Part shown: positions 30,510-61,438 of the stretch, piece by piece
Layout of the letters: each line of letters opens with the position of its first letter
Position numbering within the stretch: the first letter of the stretch is position 1
DNA from: Idiomarina rhizosphaerae
GTDB lineage: Bacteria > Pseudomonadota > Gammaproteobacteria > Enterobacterales > Alteromonadaceae
Direction of reading: 5' to 3'
Assembly: GCF_024159085.1 (NCBI RefSeq)
Contig: NZ_JAMZDE010000007.1
Span: 186,001 to 250,000, forward strand
Length of the DNA stretch: 64,000 bases
Notes under the pieces: generated by a model
Told to the model about the DNA's origin: nothing
The model's database searches: none
Seen by the model: the letters and a program-made list of their open reading frames with translations, nothing else
Made by a program: the position numbers and the translations under genes

Positions 30510-31691
30510 TTAGATCATTTCTACGGCCAGAGCAACGGCTTCACCACCACCAATACACAGTGAGGTGATGCCTCGTTTCTGGCCTTTTTGTTTCAGTGCA
30601 TGCAGCAAAGTAACCAATAACCGTGCTCCACTTGCGCCAATAGGGTGCCCTAAAGCACAGGCGCCGCCATGGACATTCACTTTAGCCGGATCCAGTTTCA
30701 TTTGCTGAATAGCCAGCATGGTGACCATGGCAAAGGCTTCGTTAATTTCCCATAAATCGACATCGTCTTTGGTCCAGTCCAGCTTACTCAGCAAGGAGTT
30801 CATTGCTCCAATTGGGGCAACGGTAAATTCAGACGGAGCCTGAGAATGCGTGGTATGACCCATAACACGTGCCAGTGGCTGCAGGCCTTTGGCCTTTGCA
30901 TCGCTCTCACGCATTAAAATAAGCGCTGCTGCACCGTCAGAAATGGAACTGGAATTAGCCGCAGTAATGGTGCCGTCTTTTTTGAATGCCGCACGCAACT
31001 GAGGAATTTTATCCAGACGCGCTTTACCCGGTTGCTCATCAGTATCGACAGTGACATCGCCTTTACGGGTAGAATATGTCACTGGGGTAATTTCATCTTT
31101 GAAAAAGCCATCTTTAATAGCGGCCTGAGCTTTGGTCAGTGAGTGAATGGCAAACTCATCCATTGCTTCACGACCCAAACCGTATTCGTCAGCAGTGTCC
31201 TGTGCGTAACACCCCATAGCTTTATGTTCGTAGGCGTCTTCCAGACCGTCCAGCATCATATGATCCAGCACTTGTCCGTGCCCCATACGATAACCGCTGC
31301 GGCCTTTTGGCAGCATGTAAGGTGCATTCGACATGCTTTCCATGCCACCGGCCAGCACAACGTCTGCTGAGCCCGCTTTAATTAAATCGTGCGCCATCAT
31401 TGCAGCTTTCAAGCCAGAGCCGCATACTTTATTAATGGTTGTGGCGCCCGTTGAGCGAGGTAAATCGGCATGCAGCATTGCCTGACGCGCTGGCGCCTGA
31501 CCCAAGCCCGCAGGTAACACATTGCCCATGATAACTTCTGAAATATCATCGGCTGTTAAACCGCTGTTACTCAGCGCTGCTTTTATAGCTGTTGCTCCCA
31601 AATCAGGAGCAGTAACTTCACTTAAGCTGCCCTGAAAACCGCCCATTGGCGTACGGTTGGCCGCTACTATAACGATTGAATCGCTCGACAT
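30510..31691 (-). CDS. Acetyl-CoA C-acyltransferase (thiolase)
   Basis: A 393-residue thiolase that cleaves beta-ketoacyl-CoA. The nucleophilic Cys is in NKVCGSGLKAAMMA near residue 90, the His in NEAFAMV, and the second Cys in the C-terminal LCIGGGEAVAL, with GGACALGHPIGASGAR. It is divergent from liuR and shares the palindromic operator at 31709-31724, so it likely belongs to the LiuR regulon. It could act on acetoacetyl-CoA (end of leucine breakdown, via acetoacetyl-CoA synthetase) and on 2-methylacetoacetyl-CoA from isoleucine. Confidence 0.94.
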   Translation of the reverse strand: MSSDSIVIVAANRTPMGGFQGSLSEVTAPDLGATAIKAALSNSGLTADDISEVIMGNVLPAGLGQAPARQAMLHADLPRSTGATTINKVCGSGLKAAMMAHDLIKAGSADVVLAGGMESMSNAPYMLPKGRSGYRMGHGQVLDHMMLDGLEDAYEHKAMGCYAQDTADEYGLGREAMDEFAIHSLTKAQAAIKDGFFKDEITPVTYSTRKGDVTVDTDEQPGKARLDKIPQLRAAFKKDGTITAANSSSISDGAAALILMRESDAKAKGLQPLARVMGHTTHSQAPSEFTVAPIGAMNSLLSKLDWTKDDVDLWEINEAFAMVTMLAIQQMKLDPAKVNVHGGACALGHPIGASGARLLVTLLHALKQKGQKRGITSLCIGGGEAVALAVEMI

Positions 31692-31708: not shown

Positions 31709-31724
31709 TTTACGTTAACGTAAA
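31709..31724. promoter_or_regulatory. Predicted LiuR operator
   Basis: TTTACGTTAACGTAAA is a perfect 16-bp palindrome 17 bases upstream of the thiolase start and 45 bases upstream of liuR. It fits the palindromic operators described for LiuR-type MerR regulators of branched-chain acyl-CoA genes, and its position suits control of both divergent transcripts. Confidence 0.75.
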
Positions 31725-31769: not shown

Positions 31770-32189
31770 ATGAACAATAAAGTGACCTACAGTATTGGCG
31801 AACTGGCAAAAGAATTTGACATTACCACCCGCAGCATTCGTTTTTATGAGGACGAAGGCTTGCTTTCCCCCAGACGCCAGGGGCAACAGCGCATATATAC
31901 CAACAAAGACCGGGTTCGTTTAAAGCTGATTCTACGCGGCAAACGACTCGGTTTTTCACTGGCCGAAACCCGCCGTTTGTTCGAACTTTACGACGCGGAT
32001 AATAGCAGTGCGGCCCAGCTCGAAAAGGTACTTGAGCTGGTCAGTGAGAAAAAACACTCACTCAAACAACAAATGGAAGATATTAATGTGTTACTGACCG
32101 AACTCAGTGGTCTGGAGCAACGTTGTCAGGACGAGCTCGAGAGCATTCAGTCGTCAGTTTCAGAAGTTCATTCTCAGGAGTCGTTATGA
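31770..32189 (+). CDS. liuR: MerR-family regulator of leucine/isovalerate degradation
   Basis: A 139-residue MerR-type activator/repressor. The N-terminal winged helix reads [20 protein letters not shown] followed by [20 protein letters not shown], and the dimerisation coiled coil covers residues 75-120. No metal-binding cysteine pattern is present at the C-terminus, in line with an acyl-CoA-responsive member. It is the first gene of the leucine operon and overlaps liuA by four bases. Its likely operator is the palindrome 45 bases upstream. Confidence 0.93.
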
Positions 32190-33355
32190 TCAGTCAATAT
32201 ACCACCTTTAACTTCGGTCTCGGCGAAACAGCCGACATGATCCGTGAACAAGTTAATGCTTTCGCGCGTGACGAAATAGCCCCACGCGCCGCCGAAATTG
32301 ATGAAAAAAATGAATTTCCCGGCGATTTATGGCAAAAGCTTGGCGACATGGGTCTGCTTGGCTTAACCGTTGCTGAAGAATATGGTGGTTCCGGTATGGG
32401 CTACCTTGAACATGTTATTGCTATGGAAGAAATTAGCCGCGCTTCTGCCTCTGTTGGCTTAAGCTATGGTGCTCATTCAAACCTCTGTGTGAACCAAATT
32501 CATCGCAACGGTAACGAAGAACAAAAACAAAAGTATTTGCCTAAACTATGCACCGGTGAGCACGTTGGTGCTTTAGCTATGAGTGAACCTAATGCCGGTT
32601 CTGATGTAGTCAGCATGAAATTACGTGCAGAGAAGAAAGGCGACAAGTACATTCTGAACGGCAATAAAATGTGGATCACTAATGGGCCGGAAGCCAATGT
32701 CTTCGTAATTTACGCTAAAACCGAACCCGAGAAGAACTCACGGGGCATTACGGCCTTTATCGTTGAAAAAGACACACCAGGATTCAGCCAGGCGCAAAAA
32801 CTCGACAAACTGGGCATGCGCGGCTCAAACACCTGTGAACTGGTCTTCGAAGACGTCGAAGTCCCCGAAGAAAACATTCTGGGAGAGCTAAACGAAGGTG
32901 TTAAAGTGTTGATGAGTGGTCTTGATTACGAGCGCGCTGTTCTTGCTGCGGGCCCTTTAGGTATTATGCAGGCCTGCCTTGATACTTGCGTACCTTATAT
33001 TCATGATCGTAAACAGTTCGGTAAAGAGATCGGCGAATTCCAGCTAATTCAGGGCAAAGTTGCTGATATGTACACTCGCACTAATGCGGCGCGTGCCTAT
33101 GTTTACGCAGTGGCTCAATCTTGCGATCGTGGCGAAACTACACGTAAAGATGCCGCCGGAGCGATTCTATACGCAGCAGAATTGGCGACTCAACTGGCAC
33201 TGGATGCTATTCAGTTATTAGGCGGTAACGGCTACATTAACGAATACCCTACAGGACGTCTGCTACGTGACGCTAAGCTTTACGAAATTGGCGCTGGTAC
33301 GTCGGAAATTCGCCGTATGCTCATTGGTCGCGAACTGTTCACTGAATCCAAATAA
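32186..33355 (+). CDS. liuA: Isovaleryl-CoA dehydrogenase
   Basis: Oxidises isovaleryl-CoA to 3-methylcrotonyl-CoA in leucine breakdown. The 389-residue FAD enzyme carries [39 protein letters not shown], the [20 protein letters not shown] segment in which the Glu matches the unusual catalytic base of isovaleryl-CoA dehydrogenases, and [23 protein letters not shown] 32186 overlaps the liuR stop codon (ATGA) and has CAGGAG upstream; an earlier in-frame start would sit inside liuR. Electrons go to ETF. Confidence 0.95.
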
Positions 33356-33370
33356 TAAGGAGGCAACGCC

Positions 33371-34978
33371 GTGGCGATTTTATCCAGTAAAATCAACACC
33401 CGCGATGCACAATTTGCGGCTAATAGCGAGTCTATGCAGGGCGTAGTTAATGACCTGCAGGAAAAAGCGGCGAAGATTCATCAAGGTGGCGGCCCTAAGT
33501 ATCAGGAGCGCCATTTGTCCCGGGGTAAATTATTGCCCCGCGACCGTATTAACAAACTGCTGGACGCGGGTTCGCCGTTTCTGGAAATAGGTCAATTTGC
33601 GGCCTGGGAATGTTACGAAGACTACGTTCCCTCAGCTGGTGTGGTTGCCGGTATTGGTCAAGTTGAAGGCACCGAGTGCATGATCATCGCCAACGACGCC
33701 ACAGTGAAAGGCGGCACTTATTACCCATTGACCGTTAAAAAACACCTGCGCGCTCAGGAAATTGCCGAGCGTTGCCACCTGCCCTGTATTTACCTGGTGG
33801 ACTCCGGCGGCGCTAACCTGCCCCGTCAGGATGAAGTCTTCCCGGACAAGGAACACTTTGGTCGCATCTTTTTCAATCAGGCAAATATGTCAGCCAAAGG
33901 CATTCCACAAATTGCGGTGGTTATGGGCCTGTGTACCGCAGGCGGTGCTTACGTACCGGCTATGGCCGATGAAAGCGTCATTGTAAAAGATCAAGGCACT
34001 ATTTTCCTTGCGGGTCCGCCATTAGTTAAAGCGGCAACGGGCGAAGAAGTTTCAGCCGAAGAGCTTGGCGGTGCCGACGTGCATACACGCATTTCCGGTG
34101 TTGCAGATCATTTTGCTCACAACGACGAACACGCTTTAGCCTTAGCGCGTCGCTCAGTAGCCCGCCTTAACCGCGGTGAACCAACTAAGCTCGACCGCCA
34201 ACCAGCCAAACCACCGCGTTACGATGCAAAAGAGCTGTACGGCATTGTCGGTACCGACCTGCGTAAACCTTATGACGTTCATGAAGTCATTGCGCGCATT
34301 GTTGATGACTCAGACTTTGACGAATTTAAAGCTAACTATGGTAATACACTGGTGACTGGATTTGCCCGCATTGACGGTTATCCGGTTGGCATTGTGGCCA
34401 ACAACGGCATTCTATTTTCTGAGTCTGCGCAAAAAGGCGCTCACTTTATTGAGCTTTGTGCCCAGCGCAAGATTCCACTGGTGTTTCTGCAAAACATTAC
34501 CGGCTTTATGGTCGGTAAAAAATACGAGGCCGAAGGTATTGCTAAGCACGGTGCGAAAATGGTTATGGCCGTTTCCTGTGCCAAAGTACCTAAGTTTACC
34601 GTATTAATTGGCGGTAGCTACGGCGCCGGTAACTACGGCATGTGTGGCCGTGCGTATGATCCAACTATGATGTTCATGTGGCCGAATGCCCGTATCTCGG
34701 TCATGGGTGGCGAGCAGGCAGCCGGTGTTATGGCACAGGTAACTAAAGACAATTTAGCGCGCAAAGGCGAAAGCTTAAGTGAAAAGAAAGAACAAGAACT
34801 GAAAAAGCCTATTGTTGAGCAGTACGATAAACAGGGGCACCCCTATTATGCCTCAGCCCGCTTATGGGACGATGGCATTATTGACCCGGCACAAACGCGC
34901 GAAGTTCTGGCATTAAGCCTTGCCGCTTCATTGAATGCACCGATTGAAGACAGCCGCTTCGGCGTCTTCCGCATGTAA
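33371..34978 (+). CDS. liuB: 3-methylcrotonyl-CoA carboxylase, carboxyltransferase (beta) subunit
   Basis: Transfers CO2 from biotin to 3-methylcrotonyl-CoA. The 535-residue protein belongs to the acyl-CoA carboxyltransferase family: [20 protein letters not shown], the N-lobe [14 protein letters not shown] with [13 protein letters not shown], and the C-lobe [16 protein letters not shown] and [18 protein letters not shown] that distinguish methylcrotonyl from propionyl substrates. The start is GTG at 33371 with AAGGAGG upstream. It pairs with the biotin carboxylase liuD, with liuC between them. Confidence 0.96.
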
Positions 34979-34994
34979 TCGGAGGTTATTAATA

Positions 34995-35780
34995 ATGGCG
35001 AAATACACAAAGCTTGATATTAACGACCAGGGCGTTGCCACGCTGACATTAAACCGGCCTGACGTTCACAACGCGTTTGATGACGTGATGATTGCAGAAC
35101 TGCTACAGGCGTTAAAAGAAGTCGAAGAGAATACGAAAGCGAGAGTGTTGGTGCTTCGTTCAGAGGGTAAAAACTTCTCTGCCGGTGCGGATCTTAACTG
35201 GATGCGCTCCATGGCCGATAAAAACTACCAACAAAACGTTGATGATGCTGGTGAGCTTGGTTTGCTAATGGAGCGTCTGGATTTGCTCAGCAAGCCCAGC
35301 ATAGCCTTGGTACAAGGTGCAGCTTTTGGCGGTGCTGTAGGCCTTGCCGCTTGCTGTGACATTGTCCTGGCGCAGCCGCGTAGCAGCTTCTGCCTGAGTG
35401 AAGTCAAAATTGGGCTTATTCCTGCGGTTATCAGCCCTTATGTTGTGCGTACTATTGGCGAGCGTCAGTCGCGTCGCTATATGCTCACCGCCGAGCGTTT
35501 TTTTGCCGATAAAGCACTGGAGCTAGGCCTGGTCAACGAGGTTGTTGAAGACTTTGAAGAGCCCTTGAGCAAATTACTAGAAGCTCTTTTAGCGAATAGT
35601 CCACAAGCGGTAGACGCCTGTAAGCAACTGATTCGCAACGTGGGTTCACGTCCAATTGATAAAAACGTCCGTGAACACACTATTAAAGCCATTGCCGAAA
35701 TTCGCGTGTCGGAAGAAGGTCAGGAAGGACTCAGTGCGTTTCTTGAAAAACGCCCCGCCGCCTGGCTTAAACAGAGTTAA
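34995..35780 (+). CDS. liuC: 3-methylglutaconyl-CoA hydratase
   Basis: Hydrates 3-methylglutaconyl-CoA to HMG-CoA. A 261-residue crotonase-family enzyme with NRPDVHNAFDDVM, the oxyanion loop FSAGADLNWMRSMA, AAFGGAVGLAACCDIVLA and FCLSEVKIGLIPAVISPYVV carrying the catalytic Glu. The ATG at 34995 follows GGAGG and avoids the overlap with liuB that an upstream ATG would create. It is also a candidate to supply hydratase activity missing from the valine/isoleucine operon, but that is inference. Confidence 0.93.
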   Translation: MAKYTKLDINDQGVATLTLNRPDVHNAFDDVMIAELLQALKEVEENTKARVLVLRSEGKNFSAGADLNWMRSMADKNYQQNVDDAGELGLLMERLDLLSKPSIALVQGAAFGGAVGLAACCDIVLAQPRSSFCLSEVKIGLIPAVISPYVVRTIGERQSRRYMLTAERFFADKALELGLVNEVVEDFEEPLSKLLEALLANSPQAVDACKQLIRNVGSRPIDKNVREHTIKAIAEIRVSEEGQEGLSAFLEKRPAAWLKQS

Positions 35781-35794
35781 CAACAGGTCTCATT

Positions 35795-37765
35795 ATGATC
35801 AAAACATTATTGATTGCGAACCGTGGTGAAATTGCCTGTCGTATCATTGCCACAGCTAAAAAAATTGGAATTCGCACCGTAGCGGTATTCTCCGATGCCG
35901 ACCGTAATTCACGCCACGTTAAGCTGGCAGATCAGGCTGTACATATTGGCCCTGCAGCGAGCACGGACAGTTACCTGCGTGCGGATAAAATTATCGCCGC
36001 CGCTAAACAAACCGGTGCCGAAGCCATTCATCCCGGTTATGGTTTTCTTTCAGAGAACGAAGATTTTGCCGACCAATGTCAGGCTAACAATATTATCTTT
36101 GTTGGCCCGCCGGTATCGTCCATTGCCGCTATGGGCTCTAAGAGCGCGGCGAAATCTATTATGCAGGACGCCGGCGTACCATTGGTTCCGGGTTACCATG
36201 GTAGCGAACAGGATATTGAAACGCTAAAAGCAGAAGCCGAAAAAGTTGGCTTCCCATTACTGCTGAAAGCCGCGTACGGCGGTGGTGGTAAAGGTATGCG
36301 CGTAGTTGAAAATATGGGCGAATTTAATGAAGCTCTGAATTCGGCGAAACGCGAAGCTAAGTCCTCTTTCGGTAACGATAAAATGCTGATGGAGCGTTTT
36401 ATTCGTAACCCCCGTCACGTGGAAATTCAGGTGTTTACCGATGAACACGGTAACGCCGTTTATCTGGCAGAACGGGACTGTTCGGTGCAGCGCCGTCACC
36501 AGAAGGTGCTTGAAGAGGCCCCTGCTCCGGCATTGACTGAAAAGACTCGCACAGAAATGGGCGAAGCTGCCATTCGTGCCGCCCAGGCGATAGATTACGT
36601 TGGTGCAGGCACGGTTGAGTTTCTGTTTGACCAAAGTGGCGAATTCTATTTCATGGAAATGAACACCCGCTTACAGGTTGAGCATCCGGTTACGGAAATG
36701 ATCACAGGTCAGGATTTAGTCGAATGGCAGTTACTTGTCGCTTCCGGTCAGCCGCTTCCTCTGGCACAGAATGACATTCAGGTAAACGGTCACGCATTCG
36801 AAGCACGGATTTACGCCGAAGACCCGGACAACGATTTCTTACCTTGCACTGGTACCATTAAGCATTTACGTACGCCTGCAGAAGAAAACGGCATCCGCAT
36901 TGACACTGGTATTGAAGAAGGCGACGAGATATCTGCTTTCTATGACCCAATGATAGCGAAGCTGATTGTCTGGGATACCGACCGTACCCGTGCTCTGCTG
37001 CGTCTGCAAAAGGCTTTGCGTGAATACCGTTTAACCGGGTTAACAACTAACGTCGACTTTTTGCATCGTTTGGCTTCGCATCCTGAGTTTGTGAAAACTA
37101 ACCTGACAACCGAATTTATCCAGCAACATCAGGAGGAGCTGCAACCAGATAGCTCGGTAAATTATCAGCAAATTGCGACTGAAGCGGCTTTGTTTGATAT
37201 TTGTCAGCGCCAACAGCAACGTGGCAGTTCACCATGGCAAAGTGGTAATGCGTTTAGAATGAACTCAGCGGCAACACATACGGTTCCACTGCAATTTGGC
37301 GAAGAAACCTACTCTATTTCACTAATAGAAACCGCTAACGGAGAGTTCCTGCAGCAAGTTGATGAAGAAAGCATACAATGGCAGACGTCTTTAACCGACG
37401 ACAAACTCACGTTGACTGCCGGCAGTATGCGTTATCATCGTTATGTCAGTGCCGACGACCAGCAAATTACGGTATTCACCGATAACGGCCCTATGACTTT
37501 CCATCGACACCGCGTGGCTGATACGCTGTCGGATGAAGCGGCCCACGGTGGTCACGTTGCGCCAATGAACGGTACCATTATGGAAGTGCTGGTTAAAAAA
37601 GGCGATACAGTCAAAAAAGATCAGCCGCTTGTCATTATGGAAGCCATGAAAATGGAATACACCATTAAAGCAGGCCATGAAGGTGAAGTCACCGACGTCT
37701 TTTTCGCCGCAGGAGATTTGGTCAGCGACGGCGATGAACTGCTTGCAGTGAGCGAAGACGAATAA
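35795..37765 (+). CDS. liuD: 3-methylcrotonyl-CoA carboxylase, biotin-containing (alpha) subunit
   Basis: A 656-residue biotin-dependent enzyme: biotin carboxylase domain (IANRGEIACRIIATAKKIGI, ATP loop KAAYGGGGKGMRVV near residue 160, EMNTRLQVEHPVTE near residue 286), a linker, and a C-terminal biotinyl domain with the attachment motif EAMKMEY around residue 617. It charges biotin with CO2 for liuB. All key motifs are intact. It follows liuC by 14 bases. The middle BT-like linker (residues 450-570) is the most divergent part. Confidence 0.96.
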   Translation: MIKTLLIANRGEIACRIIATAKKIGIRTVAVFSDADRNSRHVKLADQAVHIGPAASTDSYLRADKIIAAAKQTGAEAIHPGYGFLSENEDFADQCQANNIIFVGPPVSSIAAMGSKSAAKSIMQDAGVPLVPGYHGSEQDIETLKAEAEKVGFPLLLKAAYGGGGKGMRVVENMGEFNEALNSAKREAKSSFGNDKMLMERFIRNPRHVEIQVFTDEHGNAVYLAERDCSVQRRHQKVLEEAPAPALTEKTRTEMGEAAIRAAQAIDYVGAGTVEFLFDQSGEFYFMEMNTRLQVEHPVTEMITGQDLVEWQLLVASGQPLPLAQNDIQVNGHAFEARIYAEDPDNDFLPCTGTIKHLRTPAEENGIRIDTGIEEGDEISAFYDPMIAKLIVWDTDRTRALLRLQKALREYRLTGLTTNVDFLHRLASHPEFVKTNLTTEFIQQHQEELQPDSSVNYQQIATEAALFDICQRQQQRGSSPWQSGNAFRMNSAATHTVPLQFGEETYSISLIETANGEFLQQVDEESIQWQTSLTDDKLTLTAGSMRYHRYVSADDQQITVFTDNGPMTFHRHRVADTLSDEAAHGGHVAPMNGTIMEVLVKKGDTVKKDQPLVIMEAMKMEYTIKAGHEGEVTDVFFAAGDLVSDGDELLAVSEDE

Positions 37766-37797
37766 TAAAAAATAATCAGAAGTGATCAGGAGTGACT

Positions 37798-38697
37798 ATG
37801 GCAATTGCAGAACAGATAAAAATCGTCGAAGTTGGCCCTCGTGACGGCTTACAAAATGAAACAGCTGTTTCTGTTGACGCCAAAGTTGCCTTAATAGAAG
37901 CGCTGGCAGAAGCCGGCGTTTCTTACATTGAAAGTGCCAGCTTTGTCAGCCCCAAATGGGTGCCACAAATGGCCGACAGCACTGCTGTTATGGAACAGAT
38001 TAAACGTCGTCCAGGAGTTACTTACGCCGGTCTAACGCCAAATTTGAAAGGTTTTGAAGCTGCAGTTGCAGCCAATATGGACGAAGTAGCAGTGTTCGGT
38101 GCGGCATCGGAAGCTTTTGCCCAAAAGAATATTAACTGCAGTATCGACGAGTCGCTGGAGCGTTTTAAACCAGTTATTGCCGCAGCTAAAGAAAAAGGCA
38201 TTCCCGTCAGAGGCTATGTTTCCTGCGTTTTGGGTTGCCCGTATCAGGGTGAGGTTCCGGTAGAAAATGTTGTTAAAGTTGCAGAAGCCTTGTATCAAAT
38301 GGGCTGTTATGAAATATCACTGGGTGACACCATAGGCGTCGGTACGCCTTTAAAAGCTCAGGAAATGCTTGCCGCCGTTGCAGAGAAAGTCCCCATGGAC
38401 AAACTGGCGCTGCATTTTCACAATACATACGGACAAGCTTTGGCCAATATCATAGCCTGCCTTCCACTGGGTGTTGCTACCATTGATTCAGCCGTAGCTG
38501 GCCTGGGTGGCTGCCCATACGCTAAAGGCGCCAGTGGCAATGTCGCCACCGAAGATGTGGTTTACATGTTAAATGGTATGGGCATAAAAACCGGTATTGA
38601 CCTGAACAAGTTAATCGCAGCCGGAGCCGATATTTGTCAGCATTTAGCGCATGGCCCTCGCTCTCAGGTCGCAATAGCAGAATTGGCAAAAGCTTAA
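37798..38697 (+). CDS. liuE: Hydroxymethylglutaryl-CoA lyase
   Basis: Splits HMG-CoA into acetyl-CoA and acetoacetate, the final step of the leucine branch. The 299-residue TIM-barrel enzyme has [64 protein letters not shown] and the C-terminal [19 protein letters not shown], where the Cys is the conserved active-site residue. ATG 37798 has CAGGAG upstream and is preferred over the GTG two codons earlier. The product acetoacetate is activated by the next gene. Confidence 0.96.
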
Positions 38698-38719
38698 TTA
38701 GCAAAATAAGGGGATTAAA

Positions 38720-40663
<1,944 letters not shown>

Positions 40664-40666
40664 TCC

Positions 40667-42883
40667 ATGATGTTCCTGCACGGATCACGGCAGGCTGTTA
40701 TAGCAGCCCTTGTTGGTTTGGTCATTACTGTTACCGCTTTTAGCTATTTGCGTTATCAGGAAAATCAAGTTGTCCACGATGCCCTGGAAGCCGAAACTTA
40801 TAACTTGCAACGCGACATTCGACAAAGCCTGGTCTCCCATTTATTTGTCGCTGAATTGTTAGCTCGCGAGTGGGAACGTAGTGATCTTTCAATAGAGGAA
40901 CGCTGGCAGGAAAATGCGGATATCGTCACTTTGTACTATCAGAATGTACAAGGCATCACCTGGCTCAATGATGAGCTGGATATTGAGCTTATCTACCCTC
41001 AAAACGAACAACCCGAACTACTGGGAACCCCTTTTGCTAAAACTCCATTATTAGAAAAACTGAAGACTTCTGAAGGCAACCGTCACGCAATGATGGGAGC
41101 CGCCGGAAATTTGGGGCGTATTAGCAGCGACATAGCTATTTTTGTCCGCGTAGAGCAAGAACAAACCCACGGCTTTCTGGGTTTTGTGATAAGCCTGCAA
41201 AGCCTGTTTAATAATGTCGTACGCAGTAACATCAGTGAAGGTTTCCAGCTCAGTGTACGCAGTGACAACGACATACTGTATCAATTTGCCGGCGATACTT
41301 CATTACGCAAAGAATGGTCACATTTTCATTCACTACAATTGGTAGGAAATAGCTGGGAGCTTTCGGTCTGGCCAACCGCTGGTCATCTGGAACAACTCCG
41401 TGGTGGAATTTCAGTAGCCGCTTTAATCGCCGGTTTACTCGTAACCGGTATGCTGACTTTTGTCCTTTATATTTTAGGCCAAAGTCGTTTTAAAGCACAG
41501 CAACTGGCTGACTCCAATATTGAGCTTTATAGTGAAATTGATGAACGCGAGCGCATTGAAAAACAGATGGCTTACCTTGCAGAACATGATTCTCTCACCG
41601 GCCTTGTAAACCGAAATGCGCTAAAACGTATTCTGGGTGAGTGGCTGGAAACCGAATCACCGCATAAAAAAGCCGCTTTGTTGTTTATCGATTTAGATAG
41701 GTTTAAAGAAGTCAATGATGCGCTGGGTCATACGGTTGGTGACGAATTGCTACGCCGGGTTGCGCGACGCATTACAAAATTAGCACCTAAAGGTAGCGTT
41801 CTGGCAAGAGCCGGCGGTGATGAGTTTTTGCTGGCAATAGCAAAGCCTGATAGTCGTGAAAGTGTTATCAAACTGTCGGAACAACTTCTCCAGGCGCTCG
41901 ATACGCACTTTTTCGTGGACGTCTATGAGCTCTTTATTAGCGCCTCTATTGGGGTCACTTTTGCGGATGATGCCGATTTTAACGCTGAGTACTTTATTCG
42001 TAACGCAGACACAGCGCTATATCAGGCAAAAGAACATGGTCGCAATACCTATAAAGTTTACGATAAAGCCATTCACCGCGATTTGACCAAAAAACTGGAG
42101 CTCGTTAAACGGCTGCGCCACGCGGTTTCTAAGCAGCAACTAACGGTTTATTACCAACCTAAAGTTGAGCTCGGTAGCCGCCGTATCAGTGGTTTAGAGG
42201 CTCTGGTTCGCTGGGTTGATGACGATGGCAGTATCATTCCTCCGGATGAGTTTATTCCACTGGCTGAAGATACCGGTCTCATTATTCCAATATCGGAATA
42301 CGTGATGGAAGAAGCCTTCCTACAATTAAAGCAATGGCACGAACTTGGCTTCGAAGAATTGAGCATTGCCATCAATATCTCAGGAAAGCAGCTACACTTA
42401 GCTGATTTGGTCGATGACATTATGGAGCGGGTGAACGAAGCGCAGATACCGCCAAACAAAGTAGAACTCGAGCTAACTGAACAAGTGTTTATTGAAAACA
42501 TTCAGTCCCATACCCGTTTTATGCATTCGGTGCGTGAACAGGGAATGTCACTGGCTATAGACGACTTTGGTGTGGGCTATTCGTCATTGTCATATTTGAA
42601 GAATTTTCCGGTTACTTCGTTAAAAATAGATCGCTCTTTTGTCAGAGATTTACCACACAACGAAGACGACGCAACCATTACCCAGACCATTATTAGTCTG
42701 GCGCGCAATTTAAATCTGCAACTGGTTGCCGAGGGTATTGAAACCGAAGAACAAGTCGAATTTTTATTACAACGTGAATGCAGTACCGGACAAGGCTTTC
42801 TTTTCAGTAAACCGGTTCCGGCGCGGCAAATCACTGAACTATTACAGCAGTATAAAGGGCTTATCCCTATCCAGATAGCCTGA
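40667..42883 (+). CDS. Membrane-bound GGDEF-EAL c-di-GMP enzyme with CHASE-like sensor
   Basis: A 738-residue protein: transmembrane helix at about residues 8-26, a periplasmic sensor region (about 30-245, CHASE-like, with VQGITWLNDELDIELIYPQN), a second helix near 246-270, a GGDEF domain (active site GGDEF near residue 384) and an EAL domain (LEALVRW near 509, DDFGVGYSSLSYL near 632, AEGIETEEQ). The cyclase motif is intact but has no RxxD inhibitory site; all EAL metal and catalytic residues I can locate are present, so phosphodiesterase activity is likely. It starts 3 bases after aacS and ends 17 bases before the ETF-QO gene, so it appears to be part of the leucine operon. Confidence 0.93.
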   Translation: MMFLHGSRQAVIAALVGLVITVTAFSYLRYQENQVVHDALEAETYNLQRDIRQSLVSHLFVAELLAREWERSDLSIEERWQENADIVTLYYQNVQGITWLNDELDIELIYPQNEQPELLGTPFAKTPLLEKLKTSEGNRHAMMGAAGNLGRISSDIAIFVRVEQEQTHGFLGFVISLQSLFNNVVRSNISEGFQLSVRSDNDILYQFAGDTSLRKEWSHFHSLQLVGNSWELSVWPTAGHLEQLRGGISVAALIAGLLVTGMLTFVLYILGQSRFKAQQLADSNIELYSEIDERERIEKQMAYLAEHDSLTGLVNRNALKRILGEWLETESPHKKAALLFIDLDRFKEVNDALGHTVGDELLRRVARRITKLAPKGSVLARAGGDEFLLAIAKPDSRESVIKLSEQLLQALDTHFFVDVYELFISASIGVTFADDADFNAEYFIRNADTALYQAKEHGRNTYKVYDKAIHRDLTKKLELVKRLRHAVSKQQLTVYYQPKVELGSRRISGLEALVRWVDDDGSIIPPDEFIPLAEDTGLIIPISEYVMEEAFLQLKQWHELGFEELSIAINISGKQLHLADLVDDIMERVNEAQIPPNKVELELTEQVFIENIQSHTRFMHSVREQGMSLAIDDFGVGYSSLSYLKNFPVTSLKIDRSFVRDLPHNEDDATITQTIISLARNLNLQLVAEGIETEEQVEFLLQRECSTGQGFLFSKPVPARQITELLQQYKGLIPIQIA

Positions 42884-42900
42884 ATATAGCGGAGGTTAAC

Positions 42901-44550
42901 GTGGAACGCGAAAGCATGGAATTTGATGTCGTCATAGTTGGTGCAGGCCCGTCAGGGCTGGCAACCGCCTGTCGACTCGGCCAACTCGCACAGGAAAATG
43001 AGCAAGAACTCATGATATGCGTGGTTGAAAAAGGCGCTGATATTGGCGCTCATATTTTATCCGGCGCGGTGTTCGAACCACGAGCCCTGAATGAGCTTTT
43101 CCCTGACTGGAAAGATCGCGGCGCTCCGCTCAATACCGAAGTTACCGGCGATGATGTTTTATTGCTAAAAGACGAGAATAACCACAGTCGCCTGCCGGAC
43201 TTTAGTGTCCCTAAAACCTTCCATAATAAAGGCAACTACATTGCCAGTATGGGTAACCTGTGCCGCTGGATGGCAGAACAGGCTGAGCAACTGGGCATCG
43301 AAATATTCCCTGGCTTTGCGGCCTCTGAAATTCTGTATAACGACGATGGCAGTGTTGCTGGCATTCAAACCGGTGACATGGGCGTTGCTAAAGATGGTAG
43401 CGAAAAAGACGGCTATATGCCGGGAATGGAACTGCGTGCTAAATACACCTTATTCGCAGAAGGTTGTCGCGGTCATTTAGGCAAAGAGCTGATTAGCAAG
43501 TTTGAACTGGATAAAGACAGCACCCCGCAACATTACGGTTTAGGCTTTAAAGAAATTTGGGATGTACCGGAAGACATGCACGAGCCCGGAAAAGTGGTTC
43601 ATACCGCGGGCTGGCCACTAACCGACAGTGACGCCACTGGCGGCGGTTATCTTTATCATGCCGAAGACGGGCAAGTGTACTTAGGCCTTATTGTGGATCT
43701 TAACTACGCTAACCCTTACCTGAATCCATTTCAGGAGTTTCAGCGGTTCAAAACCCACCCGGCTATTAAGCAAGTTATAGAAAATGGTAAACGGGTGTCC
43801 TACGGCGCGCGTGCTATAGCTAAAGGTGGCTATTATTCGCTACCGAAAATGACCTTCCCCGGCGGTTTGTTGGTTGGCTGTAACGCAGGCACCTTAAACT
43901 TTGCCAAAATTAAAGGAAACCATACCGCTATGAAATCGGGTATGGTTGCTGCTGAATGTGTATTTGAACAGCTAAAAAATGGTAAAGCCAACGACGACAT
44001 TACCAGCTACAAAGAGGCGTTTGAAAAGTCCTGGGTATTTGATGAATTGTATCGCTCACGCAATTTCGGTGGTGCTGTGCATAAATTAGGCACAATACTC
44101 GGCGGCGCTTACAATATGGTCGATCAAAATTGGTTTGGCGGTAAATTACCTTTTAAATTTAAAGAGTGGACGCCAGACTATAAAGCAACAGGTAAAGCCG
44201 AAAACTATACGGAAATCGACTATCCAAAAGCTGATAATAAACTGACATTTGACCGTCTGTCATCGGTATTTTTGTCGAATACTAATCACGCAGAAGATCA
44301 ACCCTGCCATTTAAAACTCAGTGACGCTAATATTCCATTAGAAGTCAATTTACCGAAGTTTGCAGAACCTGCACAACGTTATTGCCCCGCCGGGGTTTAT
44401 GAGGTTATAGAAGAAGACGGCAAACAAGTTTTTCAAATTAACGCGCAAAACTGCATACATTGTAAAACTTGTGATATTAAAGATCCCAGCCAAAATATTA
44501 CCTGGGTTGTACCTGAAGGTGGCGGCGGACCTACCTACCCTAATATGTAA
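42901..44550 (+). CDS. Electron transfer flavoprotein-ubiquinone oxidoreductase
   Basis: ETF-QO is a membrane-associated FAD/4Fe-4S enzyme that moves electrons from ETF, reduced by acyl-CoA dehydrogenases, to ubiquinone. The 549-residue protein has the FAD motif VIVGAGPSGLATACRLG, GAHILSGAVFEPRAL, the ubiquinone-site segments KGGYYSLPKM and GGLLVGCNAGTLN, and a C-terminal 4Fe-4S cluster binding region with CPAGVYEV, QNCIHCKTCDIKDPSQNI. The start is GTG at 42901 with GGAGG; ATG 42916 is possible. It ends the leucine operon and would serve liuA and the valine acyl-CoA dehydrogenase. Confidence 0.96.
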   Translation: MERESMEFDVVIVGAGPSGLATACRLGQLAQENEQELMICVVEKGADIGAHILSGAVFEPRALNELFPDWKDRGAPLNTEVTGDDVLLLKDENNHSRLPDFSVPKTFHNKGNYIASMGNLCRWMAEQAEQLGIEIFPGFAASEILYNDDGSVAGIQTGDMGVAKDGSEKDGYMPGMELRAKYTLFAEGCRGHLGKELISKFELDKDSTPQHYGLGFKEIWDVPEDMHEPGKVVHTAGWPLTDSDATGGGYLYHAEDGQVYLGLIVDLNYANPYLNPFQEFQRFKTHPAIKQVIENGKRVSYGARAIAKGGYYSLPKMTFPGGLLVGCNAGTLNFAKIKGNHTAMKSGMVAAECVFEQLKNGKANDDITSYKEAFEKSWVFDELYRSRNFGGAVHKLGTILGGAYNMVDQNWFGGKLPFKFKEWTPDYKATGKAENYTEIDYPKADNKLTFDRLSSVFLSNTNHAEDQPCHLKLSDANIPLEVNLPKFAEPAQRYCPAGVYEVIEEDGKQVFQINAQNCIHCKTCDIKDPSQNITWVVPEGGGGPTYPNM

Positions 44551-44571
44551 ACACTTCGTAAAATTAATAAC

Positions 44572-44610
44572 AAAAAACACCAAAGCATGTTAAATGTTTT
44601 GGTGTTTTTT
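44572..44610 (+). terminator. Rho-independent terminator of the leucine operon
   Basis: A long stem (AAAACACCAAA-G-CAT pairing with ATG-TTTTGGTGTTTT, one bulged base) followed by TTTTTT lies 21 bases after the ETF-QO stop codon. It closes the transcript that starts at liuR. Confidence 0.9.
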
Positions 44611-44876
44611 CGTTTTAGGAACTGAAAATTATAAATTTTTAGAATTATCAAGTCGTAAAATGCACTTTTAAACGAGACCTATAAAAGCAGTAAAAAGAAA
44701 GCAGCATTGATAGTAATTATAAATAATTGTTAATAAATAACGCTAGACGGTGGATTTAATCCACCATTTCTATTTCTATGCACTTATTTAATAGAAAGAA
44801 GTTTCAACTTAAACTGTAATAACAGCTATAATGAAAACAAACCAATATTTAAGCAATCAAATAAGGTAAGCAAAAA
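44611..44876. other. AT-rich intergenic region upstream of hns
   Basis: Together with the terminator this makes a 326-base gene-free gap. It is strongly AT-rich and holds a near-perfect hairpin, GGTGGATTTAATCCACC at 44749-44765, followed by a pyrimidine stretch but not a clean T-run, and the hns promoter candidate near its right end. I see no open reading frame and no recognisable RNA family. AT-rich curved DNA upstream of hns is a common site of H-NS autoregulation. Confidence 0.6.
44827..44832 (+). promoter_or_regulatory. Candidate -10 box of hns
   Basis: A consensus TATAAT lies 44 bases before the hns start codon. The best -35 candidates (TTTCAA at 44802, TTCAAC at 44803) are weak with 18-19 base spacing. 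Confidence 0.5.
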
Positions 44877-45293
44877 ATGAGTGAATTCATTAACATTCTT
44901 CGTCACGAACGCCGTTTAAAAGCAGCATTAAAAGAACTGGATTTAAATGAACTGGAAAGTGTTAAAGCTAAATTTGATTCGGTAATTTCTCAGCGTCGTG
45001 AAGAGGAAGCTGAAAAGCAACGTCAGAACGAAGCAAAGCAGAAAAAAATTGAAGAATTTAAAAGCGCGATGGCCGATGCCGGCATTGAATTGTCCGATAT
45101 ATTAGAGCAAGAGCTGGGTGGCGAACCTATCGCTAAAACCACTCGTAAAAAACGAGCGCCTAAGCCTCCTAAGTACGAATACACCGACGAAAACGGCGAA
45201 AAACAAACCTGGACCGGCCAGGGCCGCATGCCTAAAGCCATGAAAACAGCTGTCGATAATGGCAAATCATTAGAAGCATTTCTAATTAAATAG
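44877..45293 (+). CDS. hns: H-NS family nucleoid protein
   Basis: A 138-residue H-NS homologue that binds AT-rich DNA and silences genes. The N-terminal half is a coiled-coil oligomerisation region (residues about 1-65, with a highly charged QRREEEAEKQRQNEAKQKK stretch), followed by a basic linker (TTRKKRAPKPPKYEY) and the DNA-binding core TWTGQGRMPKAM, a variant of the TWTGxGRxP motif. AAGGTAAG precedes ATG 44877. It is a single gene between two terminators, and the AT-rich upstream region may allow autoregulation. Confidence 0.95.
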   Translation: MSEFINILRHERRLKAALKELDLNELESVKAKFDSVISQRREEEAEKQRQNEAKQKKIEEFKSAMADAGIELSDILEQELGGEPIAKTTRKKRAPKPPKYEYTDENGEKQTWTGQGRMPKAMKTAVDNGKSLEAFLIK

Positions 45294-58254: not shown

Positions 58255-58600
58255 TTAGCTCTCCATGCTTATTAATAAACTTTAGTTTCTTCCCAACCCA
58301 CTTTTCTAAAGGCCAAAAGTTTCCAGCGGCCATTTCAATTAATCCGTGAGCTCCTTTAAAACGAGCTATTTCGTTGGGACAAATGAATCGACGAACCTCT
58401 ATAATTTTGTTTCCTTTGTCGAAGGCCACAACATCAATTGGCTCTTTCATTCCCCAAGTGTGTATTGATTTACAAAATGGAAACCAAAAAGCCATCTCTG
58501 TCGTTGGTTGCTGCTCGCCCAACATGCCAATCAACCTTTGATGAAACTTTTTCATGGCTTTTACTTTGGGCCATAAAATAATTTCTTTCTCGCTTGTCAT
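58208..58600 (-). CDS. DUF192 family protein within the pilus cluster
   Basis: A 130-residue cytosolic protein with the DUF192 pattern: RLIGMLGEQQ, MAFWFPFCKSIHTWGMKEPI, DVVAFDKGNKIIEVRRFI and GLIEMAAG. No signal peptide is seen, unlike many DUF192 proteins. It overlaps tadC by four bases (ATGA) and the TadD-like gene by 47 bases, so it is an integral part of the operon. DUF192 proteins have no settled function. Its role in pilus assembly here is unknown. Confidence 0.8.
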   Translation of the reverse strand: MTSEKEIILWPKVKAMKKFHQRLIGMLGEQQPTTEMAFWFPFCKSIHTWGMKEPIDVVAFDKGNKIIEVRRFICPNEIARFKGAHGLIEMAAGNFWPLEKWVGKKLKFINKHGELNENKHFDCCIAIELN

Positions 58601-59385
58601 CCAAACCCTCCTTGGCTTATTTGAACAATTACTGGACCCAGAATAACCAGAAAATTTACCGGGAAAAAACAGGTTACTAGTGGAAAAAGAAGCTTTACTG
58701 GCGCTTCTTGCGCTCTCTTCTCCGCTGAGTTGAGTAGATCCTGTCTTAATTGATTGGCATAAAACCTTAACGATTTGGTCAAGCTAGTTCCTTGCTGATA
58801 TCCTTTTATTAGCATCGAACACCACTCATGGAGCTGCTTTACGTTATACCGTTCAGAAAGTTCATCCATTGACTGAGCAAAACTTCCCCCTCTCCGAAGC
58901 CGACTGAGCATCGATGTAATCTCCCGCGCCAGCAGAAGATCACTGCACGACGCAGATACCTTTTCTAAAGCGGAAATTAACGGAATACCTGAAGCAATCA
59001 TCATAGAAATTAGATCACAGAAATCAGGAAGTTGGCGAACTATCGCTTTGTTATTTTTTAGAACTAACTGTCTTCTCTTATTTATGATCATTAGTAGTAA
59101 GAGAGCATAGGCAACGCTTAAAAGCCAAACCCCAGAAAGTAGAGAGACAGAGACTGATACACATGCCATAAAAACCCAGAAGCAAAATGATCGAGCGGCT
59201 CCTTTTAGAAAATCTACTTCCAGGTAACGAACAGTCCATCTTTTGACATTTTCCGGTAAAACGGACCAAATTTTTGATATTGCATAATCAAGCTTTTGCC
59301 CAAGCGCCAATATTTGCCAGACCGCGAGAGCTAAGAACGAAAAACAAAGAGTAGCGAGAAATATTAAGACGGCAACTATAATCAT
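58597..59385 (-). CDS. Tad pilus inner membrane platform protein TadC
   Basis: A 262-residue type II secretion F-domain protein. It has an N-terminal hydrophobic segment (VAVLIFLATLCFSFLALAVW), a central pair of helices, and the platform core KAIVRQLPDFCDLISMMIAS followed by GIPLISALEKVS and a C-terminal LLFPLVTCFFPVNFLVILGP. These identify TadC, which with TadB forms the pilus assembly platform. It overlaps tadB by four bases. Confidence 0.88.
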   Translation of the reverse strand: MIIVAVLIFLATLCFSFLALAVWQILALGQKLDYAISKIWSVLPENVKRWTVRYLEVDFLKGAARSFCFWVFMACVSVSVSLLSGVWLLSVAYALLLLMIINKRRQLVLKNNKAIVRQLPDFCDLISMMIASGIPLISALEKVSASCSDLLLAREITSMLSRLRRGGSFAQSMDELSERYNVKQLHEWCSMLIKGYQQGTSLTKSLRFYANQLRQDLLNSAEKRAQEAPVKLLFPLVTCFFPVNFLVILGPVIVQISQGGFG

Positions 59386-60233
59386 TTCTCATCTTCCGGA
59401 TTCATAATTCTCTTAACCATCCATCCACCAATAACCATCAATATAAGAGCCACTATAAGCATAAAAATACCAACGCGTGACTCAGTGAAAAGCGCTGTAT
59501 GTTCTGGTTTCATCCAACTTAAAAGAAAATACAATCCAACTGGCATCATAACGAGAATTTTAGCCTGCATTCTGGCTTGTGAAGTCAGCGTTATCTGCCG
59601 CTCTTTAATGTGCTGCTGTTGTTGGAGGTTGTCAGCCAACCTTAGAAATAAGTCTGATTGTTGTCCTCCACTTTTCAAACCTAAAACTAAAGATTGAACC
59701 ACCAGTTTAATGGAGAAAACAGGAACTCTCCGCTGCCAGTCTTCCAGGCAATCCGTTAAGGGTTTACCCACTTTTTCCTGCCTCAATAGCTCGTCAACCT
59801 CTTGTCCTAAAGGAGCTAATAACGTTCCTTTTAAATTTTTCAAAGCGGATCCGACACTTGTACCACTTCTTAACTGGTTACTGAGCCCAATCAACATTCC
59901 GGGCAACTGTTTTTCAATTTTTATGTAACGTTGCTTTTTAAGTTGACGATAAACAAATGGCGGAGCCAACAAAGTAAGAATAAACGTCGCTACTGCCCAG
60001 GTTCTATTAACATAAAACCATACGATTAAGGGCGATAAGAGCGTGACTACCAGATAACTTCTGACCAAAATTATTACCGGCATTCTCAAGAAAAACTCTT
60101 CTAAAGAGCGTACTGTTGATAGCGTCAGTTTCTCTTCAAGTTGCTGATATCGTTTTGGTGTTAAATGCGAAAAGATCCATAGCCAGCAAAGCCCGCTGCA
60201 AACGATTAAGAACGCTAATCCGAAGATGAACAT
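59382..60233 (-). CDS. Tad pilus inner membrane platform protein TadB
   Basis: A 283-residue F-domain membrane protein with a start helix (MFIFGLAFLIVCSGLCWLWI), a middle pair of membrane segments, and the platform motif QLPGMLIGLSNQLRSGTSVG followed by SALKNLKGTLLAPLG. The C-terminal half ends with two hydrophobic helices. It is the TadB paralogue of TadC. It overlaps tadA by 19 bases. Confidence 0.87.
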   Translation of the reverse strand: MFIFGLAFLIVCSGLCWLWIFSHLTPKRYQQLEEKLTLSTVRSLEEFFLRMPVIILVRSYLVVTLLSPLIVWFYVNRTWAVATFILTLLAPPFVYRQLKKQRYIKIEKQLPGMLIGLSNQLRSGTSVGSALKNLKGTLLAPLGQEVDELLRQEKVGKPLTDCLEDWQRRVPVFSIKLVVQSLVLGLKSGGQQSDLFLRLADNLQQQQHIKERQITLTSQARMQAKILVMMPVGLYFLLSWMKPEHTALFTESRVGIFMLIVALILMVIGGWMVKRIMNPEDEK

Positions 60234-61438
60234 AACCCATCTCCCATAAGTGACTCCCAGACCTCCTGGCGAATGTCGTCCCCTTGCTCATCAGCGAACT
60301 TACATAACGTCTTATTACTTATTAATGACTGAGTCGTATTGCGTCTTTCAAATAGTGGTGACAGCTGTAAAACATTATCGTCTATGCCCGTAACTTCACT
60401 GATACTAAGCACGGATCTTCTGCCATCAGAAAGACGCGCTATCTGAATCACAATATTAACGGCACTGGCTATTTGTTGTCGTAACGCAGAAATAGGAAGT
60501 TCTATTCCGCCCATCAAGACCATAATTTCCAAACGTCTTAAAGCATCGCGAGCGCTATTCGCATGAACCGTGCTCAGAGATCCCGCGTGACCAGTATTCA
60601 TAGCCTGTAACATGTCCAAAGCTTCCGACCCACGGCACTCACCTACAATAAGTCGATCAGGACGCATTCGCAGTGCATTGATAACGAGCTCGCGAATATT
60701 TATAGCGCCTGTTCCCTCCTGGTTTTTGGGTCTGGCCTCAAGACTTATCAAATTATTATGATCTAATTGCAGTTCAGCCGCATCTTCGATACTGATAATT
60801 CTTTCATCTTCAGGGATTTCCTGAGATAGAATATTTAATAAGGTTGTTTTTCCCGTTCCTGTTCCACCAGAAACAATGATATTTTGGCGACAACGAACAG
60901 CAAGTCTTAAGAATTCAGCAGCTTGCTCCGTTAATGAGCCACTATCTACTAAGTCCTCGATCGTTAGCGATTTCTTGGTGAACTTTCGAATAGTGAGACA
61001 CGATCCTTTGGTCGCTAAAGGTGCTAAAACAGCGTTTACGCGAGAACCGTCCGGTAAACGAGCATCGACCATCGGCGAGGCATCATCAACGTGACGACCT
61101 AAAGGCAGAACGATCTTATCGATAGTCCGCCGCAGAGAGAATTCGTTACTGAATTGTTCATCCGCTTTTTTCAACTTACCTGAGCGTTCAACATAGATCT
61201 GATCATAGCTATTAACCATAATTTCAGTTACTGAGTCATCTTCTAAAAGGCGCTCAATAGGGCCCAGACCAATGACTTCAGCCACTACATCTGCTATATC
61301 TTTTCCAGACTCACCTGTAGTTTTCTTTAAATAGGATTCAGCATAGCGTCTCAACTCACATTCACTCATAGCCTCAAAACGTGGATCTCTGGTATCTAAA
61401 TGCTCTTTAAGGCTATTGATCAAATTTACTGATGTCAT
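60215..61438 (-). CDS. tadA: Tad pilus assembly ATPase TadA/CpaF
   Basis: The 407-residue secretion ATPase that powers pilus assembly. It has the CpaF-type N-terminal region (IGLGPIERLLEDDSVTEIMV, RHVDDASPMVDARLPDGSRV), Walker A GGTGTGKTT near residue 195, the Asp box, Walker B-like RPDRLIVGECRGSEALDMLQ and the His box TGHAGSLSTVHANS. All key residues are present. It lacks a visible long N-terminal extension and overlaps both neighbours (rcpA by 4 bases, tadB by 19). Confidence 0.95.
   Translation of the reverse strand: MTSVNLINSLKEHLDTRDPRFEAMSECELRRYAESYLKKTTGESGKDIADVVAEVIGLGPIERLLEDDSVTEIMVNSYDQIYVERSGKLKKADEQFSNEFSLRRTIDKIVLPLGRHVDDASPMVDARLPDGSRVNAVLAPLATKGSCLTIRKFTKKSLTIEDLVDSGSLTEQAAEFLRLAVRCRQNIIVSGGTGTGKTTLLNILSQEIPEDERIISIEDAAELQLDHNNLISLEARPKNQEGTGAINIRELVINALRMRPDRLIVGECRGSEALDMLQAMNTGHAGSLSTVHANSARDALRRLEIMVLMGGIELPISALRQQIASAVNIVIQIARLSDGRRSVLSISEVTGIDDNVLQLSPLFERRNTTQSLISNKTLCKFADEQGDDIRQEVWESLMGDGLCSSSD

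Follow-up and report, generated by a model that had tools for sequence, protein, structure and literature searches.

Why does a gene for cyclic di-guanosine monophosphate (c-di-GMP) signalling stand inside an operon for leucine degradation? The question is raised by a stretch of 64,000 nucleotides from Idiomarina rhizosphaerae (contig NZ_JAMZDE010000007.1, positions 186,001 to 250,000; the whole stretch is called the window here). In the window, a GGDEF-EAL gene of 738 codons occupies positions 40667..42883 of the plus strand, with its ATG at 40667 and a stop codon that ends at 42883. The gene is the eighth in a one-strand series, liuR-liuA-liuB-liuC-liuD-liuE-aacS-(GGDEF-EAL)-etfQO. The stop codon of aacS at 40663 leaves a gap of 3 bp to its ATG, and 17 bp separate its own stop codon from the GTG of etfQO at 42901. 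An initial annotation, made from the letters of the sequence alone, had assigned the gene to this operon, 3 bp behind aacS and 17 bp ahead of etfQO, and gene order and coordinates agree exactly. A profile search of the same genome returns 20 EAL matches, two of them partial. Hence, the gene is one of many c-di-GMP genes and is unusual for its address. We consider it about an even call that a c-di-GMP phosphodiesterase with a CHASE/dCache-type sensor was captured by the leucine operon and was made a non-catalytic sensor in one genus.

Across three genera (62 genomes), 60 have a GGDEF-EAL gene between aacS and etfQO, more than chance would give. All 19 Idiomarina genomes examined (g1) carry the GGDEF-EAL gene there, and an open reading frame of 723-786 codons takes this slot in 17/17 genomes of the genus that we label g11 and in 24 of the 26 genomes of the genus g27. 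The g27 frames are open at full length without exception (24/24, 723-774 codons). In the two other g27 genomes, G044 (L161) and G179 (L212), aacS and etfQO are 47-48 bp apart with nothing between them, a clean absence that makes these genomes natural knock-outs.

The window protein shows Pfam matches to a GGDEF domain at residues 305-460 (E 2e-41, 141.9 bits, cut-off 23.8) and to an EAL domain at residues 481-716 (E 1.9e-74, 250.4 bits, cut-off 31.3), preceded by a transmembrane helix, a sensor region at ~30-248 and a second helix at 248-291. The solved chains nearest in sequence are the GGDEF-EAL proteins 4rnh ('Motility regulator', 335 bits) and 5m3c (332 bits), which we take to be MorA and MucR of Pseudomonas. 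The window protein resembles both in its tandem GGDEF-EAL arrangement with intact motifs and differs in that the alignment spans its residues 302-723 only and does not cover the sensor. To our knowledge, neither MorA nor MucR lies in a leucine operon. Every Idiomarina copy (19/19) and every g11 copy (17/17), and also L192, a locus classed in g27, has retained the ten residues E, R, N, E, E, D, D, K, E and Q of the EAL domain, which we take to be the catalytic set of RocR-type EAL work, with the roles of motifs and residues assumed likewise. Nor is any of the three metal and guanine positions of the GGDEF domain changed in the 36/36 copies of Idiomarina and g11. Variants are confined to a GGDEY pentapeptide in four g11 copies and an EAL motif that reads EVL in two g11 copies, and no RxxD inhibitory site (I-site) was seen by eye before the GGDEF motif of the window protein. 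The EAL domain is the best conserved of the three (80.2% identity within Idiomarina, 64.5% between Idiomarina and g11), followed by the GGDEF domain (77.5% and 51.1%) and the sensor (59.6% and 27.1%). This order favours a phosphodiesterase output, and the GGDEF-EAL pair probably acts mainly as a c-di-GMP phosphodiesterase.

The N-terminal part is, according to its structure model, a CHASE/dCache-type sensor with an alpha/beta fold between two long putative membrane helices. The model of residues 1-292 (predicted local distance difference test score, pLDDT, 84.5; built with 10 alignment rows) matches KinD (4jgp) with Z 17.9, a root-mean-square deviation (rmsd) of 2.9 and 201 aligned residues, the CHASE domain of the cytokinin receptor AHK4 (Z 16.1, rmsd 3.4, 205 aligned) and a Vibrio sensory-box/GGDEF protein (Z 15.8, rmsd 3.2, 201 aligned). 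Amino-acid chemoreceptors and DctB follow at Z 13-14, so that the likeness to this sensor class as a whole lies at Z 13-18, values that long helices in the matches may inflate. The Pfam scan of the window protein gave no CHASE (PF03924) or dCACHE match and left the N-terminus without any match near significance. A 40% identical homologue, L188, reaches 20.8 bits for CHASE, below the cut-off of 25, and HAMP was found in none of the Pfam scans. Two claims of the initial annotation, intact EAL residues and a periplasmic CHASE-like domain, thus stand: the ten positions are kept in the window protein, as are the GGDEF residues, and the modelled fold is that of CHASE/dCache sensors, in a presumably periplasmic location. 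Judged from the ligands named in the matched structures, an organic or amino acid ligand is plausible. The Idiomarina protein would be an inner-membrane sensor enzyme, in which the periplasmic ligand domain drives the cytoplasmic GGDEF-EAL pair and the activity follows a small periplasmic ligand.

In g27, the same slot holds copies with altered active sites. The second metal Asp of the EAL domain and the metal Asp of the GGDEF domain are lost in 23 of 24 copies (each in 23/23 degenerate copies), and the catalytic EAL Glu is changed to Val in 22/23 of these. The letters GGDEF persist in 11/23 degenerate copies; the E of EAL, the next Arg, the Lys and the Gln persist in 22/23 and the Asn in 21/23. 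The most altered copy, L213, has changes at nine of the ten EAL positions, and identity within g27 is low (33-48% by domain). In a tree of aacS plus etfQO (a quick LG+G4 tree with no bootstrap and partly truncated genes), the 25 crown g27 genomes form one clade with a Shimodaira-Hasegawa-like approximate likelihood ratio test (SH-aLRT) value of 100, and the intact L192 falls outside, its position relative to Idiomarina and crown g27 being tentative. The tree suggests that two state changes suffice, so that one conversion and one or two deletions would account for g27. Crown g27 would thus have undergone a single conversion to a non-catalytic, selected sensor protein, which is missing in two genomes.

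Two other accounts of the g27 copies were rejected. The copy in the slot is not a different paralogue, because the best match of L159 in the genome of the window is the GGDEF-EAL gene itself (454 vs 227 bits), which is also the sole match that covers the N-terminus; for L159, orthology is thus firm. Nor has c-di-GMP signalling been lost in g27, since 25/26 genomes contain 6-21 EAL matches, a count that possibly includes the operon copy. G179, which lacks the GGDEF-EAL gene, has no EAL match in its assembly, which is 86% complete. The matches listed for the intact enzyme at other sites of the g27 genomes include none over the full length; the nearest of them, in G182:C6, covers residues 45-716 at 30%. 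The operon copy of G181 is 24% identical to L159 and does not show among the matches listed.

The degenerate copies are not pseudogene-like and appear to be held by purifying selection. Ratios of non-synonymous to synonymous substitutions (dN/dS) were obtained by a simple pairwise count (NG86), with dS > 2 in four of the 8 degenerate pairs. They amount to 0.022-0.078 for the GGDEF-EAL gene of degenerate pairs (7/8 pairs computable, one saturated), compared with 0.025-0.045 for aacS (5/8 computable) and 0.011-0.024 for etfQO (8/8) in the same pairs and with 0.015-0.048 for intact GGDEF-EAL copies (6/9 pairs). The three degenerate pairs with dS 0.1-2 give whole-gene values of 0.031-0.063. For the EAL domain alone, the range is 0.019-0.090 in degenerate (three pairs) vs 0.005-0.032 in intact copies, which leaves room for some relaxation. 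In the pairs L195/L197 and L012/L013, dS of the GGDEF-EAL gene is ~2.1 and 1.9 vs 0.27 and 0.30 for aacS, which hints at allele replacement by recombination.

How might the gene be expressed? The operon begins with a MerR-family regulator (31770..32189, +), named liuR from its context and from the homologue that heads the liu genes in relatives. It is followed by an acyl-CoA dehydrogenase (liuA; 32186..33355, +) whose ATG overlaps the liuR stop codon, a carboxyltransferase (liuB; 33371..34978, +) and an enoyl-CoA hydratase with an uncertain start (liuC; 34935..35780, +); these four genes were identified by their domains and take their names from gene context, as no profile model names them. 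Next come the biotin carboxylase gene liuD (35795..37765, +), with BT_MCC_alpha (MCC-alpha BT) and biotinyl domains, the hydroxymethylglutaryl-CoA lyase gene liuE (37792..38697, +), assigned by profile matches, the acetoacetate-CoA ligase gene aacS (38720..40663, +; TIGR01217, 930.7 bits, cut-off 520.9) and, beyond the GGDEF-EAL gene, etfQO (42901..44550, +), which encodes electron transfer flavoprotein (ETF)-ubiquinone oxidoreductase judging from its protein domains. Upstream of liuR, a thiolase gene of the acetyl-CoA acetyltransferase type (30510..31691, -; profile matches) points the other way, and between the two lies a putative LiuR operator, the perfect 16-bp palindrome TTTACGTTAACGTAAA at 31709..31724. 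The palindrome recurs before liuR with 0-1 mismatch in 16/16 loci with an available upstream region. A MerR-family gene at the head of liuABCDE together with a conserved upstream palindrome marks the operon as LiuR-type. At its 3' end, an intrinsic terminator hairpin (44572..44610, +) with a T run follows etfQO, as the initial annotation had proposed; the fold energy of 44551-44625 is -25 kcal/mol (z -5.9). A pattern scan for terminators misses this hairpin and lists another weak match at 44749-44765.

The palindrome scan covered the operon region of the window and 52 loci, 16 with the upstream region and 36 that start ~3 kb ahead of aacS; of the genomes with short g1 loci (19, outside the scan), 8 were covered via L031-L038. 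No second LiuR-type site with <=3 mismatches was found near the GGDEF-EAL gene in these regions, and the only match with three mismatches lies inside a liuR gene (L142). Therefore, any LiuR control would have to be read-through over ~9 kb. A second exact copy of the palindrome at G000:C1:51546-51561 (L028) was not counted as a LiuR site, as it has MFS-like and GH43-like neighbours (by eye) and resembles a LacI-type operator. The operators of LacI and LiuR can be confused by sequence alone. On the operon model, the GGDEF-EAL gene would be co-transcribed with the leucine-degradation genes from a LiuR-controlled promoter, so that the amount of protein tracks leucine or isovalerate catabolism. The distances of only 3 and 17 bp to its neighbours speak for this model, as does a pattern scan of the window with no promoter-like match on the plus strand at 38424-41186. 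Control of c-di-GMP by leucine through LiuR, and through it the choice between motile and sessile life that the initial annotation envisaged, would be possible in Idiomarina.

The spacing between aacS and the GGDEF-EAL gene bears on this model. The gap is short in 17/19 Idiomarina (3-45 bp) and 23/24 g27 genomes (<=34 bp). The basal L026 and L027 (Idiomarina) and L192 (classed in g27) have 81-158 bp there. A promoter-like element (TTGC, 18-20 nt, [AG]ATNAT[CG]) lies in the gap of 12/17 g11 genomes, of L192 and of the basal Idiomarina L027. It was not found in the gap of L026, of 5/17 g11 genomes, of crown Idiomarina, including the window, or of crown g27. The pattern was written after inspecting the gaps, so that its shuffle rates of 0-1.2% are post hoc; it occurs 25 times in 19 loci (479,862 nt, both strands counted), with 14 occurrences in the gaps and 11 elsewhere. 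Three g11 loci without the common element, L143, L221 and L222, have in common an AT-rich stretch around AAACGTGTAA that may be a substitute promoter (by eye). As g11 and the basal lineages have longer gaps, mostly with the promoter-like element, control by the operon alone looks derived. Before the split of the three genera, the GGDEF-EAL gene would have entered the space between aacS and etfQO together with a promoter of its own. This ancestral promoter was probably lost twice, in crown Idiomarina, to which the window belongs, and in crown g27, and the gene would thereby have been locked into the operon. The initial view of a gene controlled solely by its operon thus fits crown Idiomarina, with its short gaps and no element, and lacks support as a general rule, given g11 and the basal lineages.

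Several observations weigh against a phosphodiesterase under leucine control. The intact GGDEF residues may leave room for bifunctionality. The sole LiuR-type site lies ~9 kb upstream of the GGDEF-EAL gene, and weak terminator-like matches occur within the operon, including 40385-40403 in aacS and 40693-40708 at the start of the GGDEF-EAL gene. In 17/17 g11 genomes, the gap after aacS is 77-259 bp, and the g11 gene may be transcribed on its own. The g27 slot may represent a selected function without c-di-GMP turnover, and catalysis may thus not be the core function. The mechanical scans for promoters and terminators are weak evidence in either direction: 21 terminator matches compare with 18.3 in shuffles and 15 promoter matches with 18.9, with no excess in either case.

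The g27 copies also argue that leucine, LiuR and c-di-GMP are not the whole story of the slot, because this genus keeps the gene without the turnover residues. Either the g27 protein may have become a receptor for c-di-GMP or a ligand, similar to LapD, or the job of the slot may always have been contact with the neighbouring metabolism. The latter idea is the leading alternative, possible although in our view unlikely: the function of the slot would be non-catalytic, that of a membrane sensor or scaffold (a 'trigger' GGDEF-EAL protein) acting on the neighbouring acetoacetate or electron-transfer enzymes or on other partners. Turnover of c-di-GMP in Idiomarina and g11 would only tune this contact, so that g27 could drop catalysis and keep the gene. 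This is consistent with the 23/24 g27 copies that lack both metal Asp residues yet retain frames of 723-774 codons in the slot, with their dN/dS of 0.022-0.078 (0.031-0.063 for the three pairs with dS < 2) and with G052, a genome without a liuE match that pairs a 40% identical homologue with aacS. However, G044 and G179 keep the operon without the gene, and strict conservation of catalytic residues in the 36/36 other copies indicates that catalysis matters there. Moreover, a degenerate EAL domain can still bind c-di-GMP, as described for LapD in the accessible part of PMC3032553, and the g27 protein could be such a receptor.

LapD and CsrD, portrayed in the same part of that source as membrane GGDEF-EAL proteins, offer a precedent. 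LapD works without catalysis and, with its degraded sites, still binds c-di-GMP and signals, and CsrD acts on RNA decay (PMC3032553, in part). The g27 orthologues resemble them in that both active sites are degraded and the gene is still kept. The three of 23 degenerate copies scanned score 81-125 bits with the LapD model (cut-off 1020) and 79-91 bits with the CsrD model (cut-off 663), far below both cut-offs. Further differences are the lack of HAMP matches in the Pfam scans and the presence, in sister genera, of intact orthologues at the same place of the operon.

Could the gene merely be hitch-hiking? An ordinary c-di-GMP enzyme, transcribed independently and without a functional tie to leucine catabolism, might have settled at this locus by accident, an account that we find improbable. 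The promoter-like element in 12/17 g11 genomes, L192 and L027 speaks for it, as does the genome of the window with its 20 EAL matches, since such genes are common. The distribution in the wider family points the same way. A liuE match is present in 134 of 147 genomes sampled across that family. Regions of 60 genomes were read, of which four had been picked for a full-length homologue without a liuE match and the other 56 came from 45 genera, with one genome per genus and sometimes two to four. All 56 regions contain liu genes (L139 is cut by a contig end and L148 has no liuC match). The 6.5-10.5 kb that follow liuE were read for the tail of aacS, GGDEF-EAL gene and etfQO, which appeared in g11 (3/3) and g27 (3/4) and in none of the other 43 genera. 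Conservation of the operon, which the initial annotation had named as a check, is thus borne out inside the three genera (60/62) and breaks down in the wider family. Some other liu operons have GGDEF-containing frames several kb downstream, without aacS or etfQO, and five further outside genomes carry full-length homologues without a neighbouring aacS match (19 kb read in three, ~1.5 kb on each side in two). Against an accidental neighbour stand the slot itself, filled in 60/62 genomes, and the short gaps devoid of the element in Idiomarina (<=45 bp in 17/19) and g27 (<=34 bp in 23/24), the opposite of an independent unit.

A separate observation concerns G052, the sole genome of its genus examined. 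At L188 (8693-12889), an intact GGDEF-EAL homologue with 40% identity starts 12 bp after a 50% identical aacS, with no liuE match in the genome and with type I restriction genes adjoining the pair.

In a broader version of the non-catalytic idea, the sensor would from the start and in general have controlled ketone-body or leucine catabolism, or a partner protein, by non-catalytic means, and c-di-GMP would be an input and not an output. Crown g27 would then show this function in its barest form, as a pseudoenzyme shared across the genus and established by one event of Glu-to-Val change and Asp loss, with low dN/dS and with natural knock-outs in two genomes; we regard this version as doubtful. 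It is highly improbable that the g27 copies are decaying genes heading for loss and uninformative on function: the gene is missing in two genomes, L213 has nine of ten EAL positions altered, within-g27 identity is 33-48% by domain and dN/dS of the degenerate EAL domain is 0.019-0.090 vs 0.005-0.032 in intact copies, but 22/23 degenerate copies share the Glu-to-Val change and still have E(EAL), R, K and Q (21 also N), and 24/24 open full-length frames with whole-gene dN/dS far < 1 largely contradict decay.

The leucine side of the captured phosphodiesterase can be set beside known LiuR regulons, which the operon resembles in having liuRABCDE with a palindrome before liuR. The accessible part of PMC5343134 predicts LiuR regulons in 103 proteobacterial genomes (104 in its text) with a mean of 13.7 genes and a role in the use of branched-chain amino acids, and that of PMC3223726 reports a Shewanella regulon expanded to gltBD, thrABC and aceBA. 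For Pseudomonas aeruginosa, the available part of PMC8871633 describes LiuR as a repressor of liuRABCDE, whose expression is favoured by leucine. Neither 'GGDEF' nor 'aacS' is mentioned (0 occurrences) in the main text of PMC5343134 or of PMC3223726. Among the papers that searches of the open-licence PMC literature listed, none reports, judging from its title or the opening of its abstract, a c-di-GMP gene in a liu operon, which is weak evidence of novelty; PMC8871633 and PMC10383645 carry both kinds of term, and their accessible parts describe no such gene there.

Two neighbours of the operon complete the description of the window. An H-NS-like gene with both H-NS Pfam domains lies at 44877-45293, after the operon terminator. 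The Tad-type pilus locus that the initial annotation had placed 15 kb away corresponds to two T2SSF genes, a T2SSE ATPase gene and a secretin gene at 58597-62649, ~15.7 kb from the GGDEF-EAL gene, a relation considered by position only.

At this locus, a named catabolic pathway and a c-di-GMP module are tied together by a fixed position in the genome. The three genera provide a built-in comparative experiment, with an intact enzyme in Idiomarina and g11, an apparently dead but selected protein in crown g27 and none in two g27 genomes. The comparison allows a direct test of whether the breakdown of nutrients determines c-di-GMP, and of how enzymes of the GGDEF-EAL type become non-catalytic signalling proteins. 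The loss of catalytic residues in a sister genus, with selection apparently maintained, points to a role of this protein beyond making and breaking c-di-GMP.

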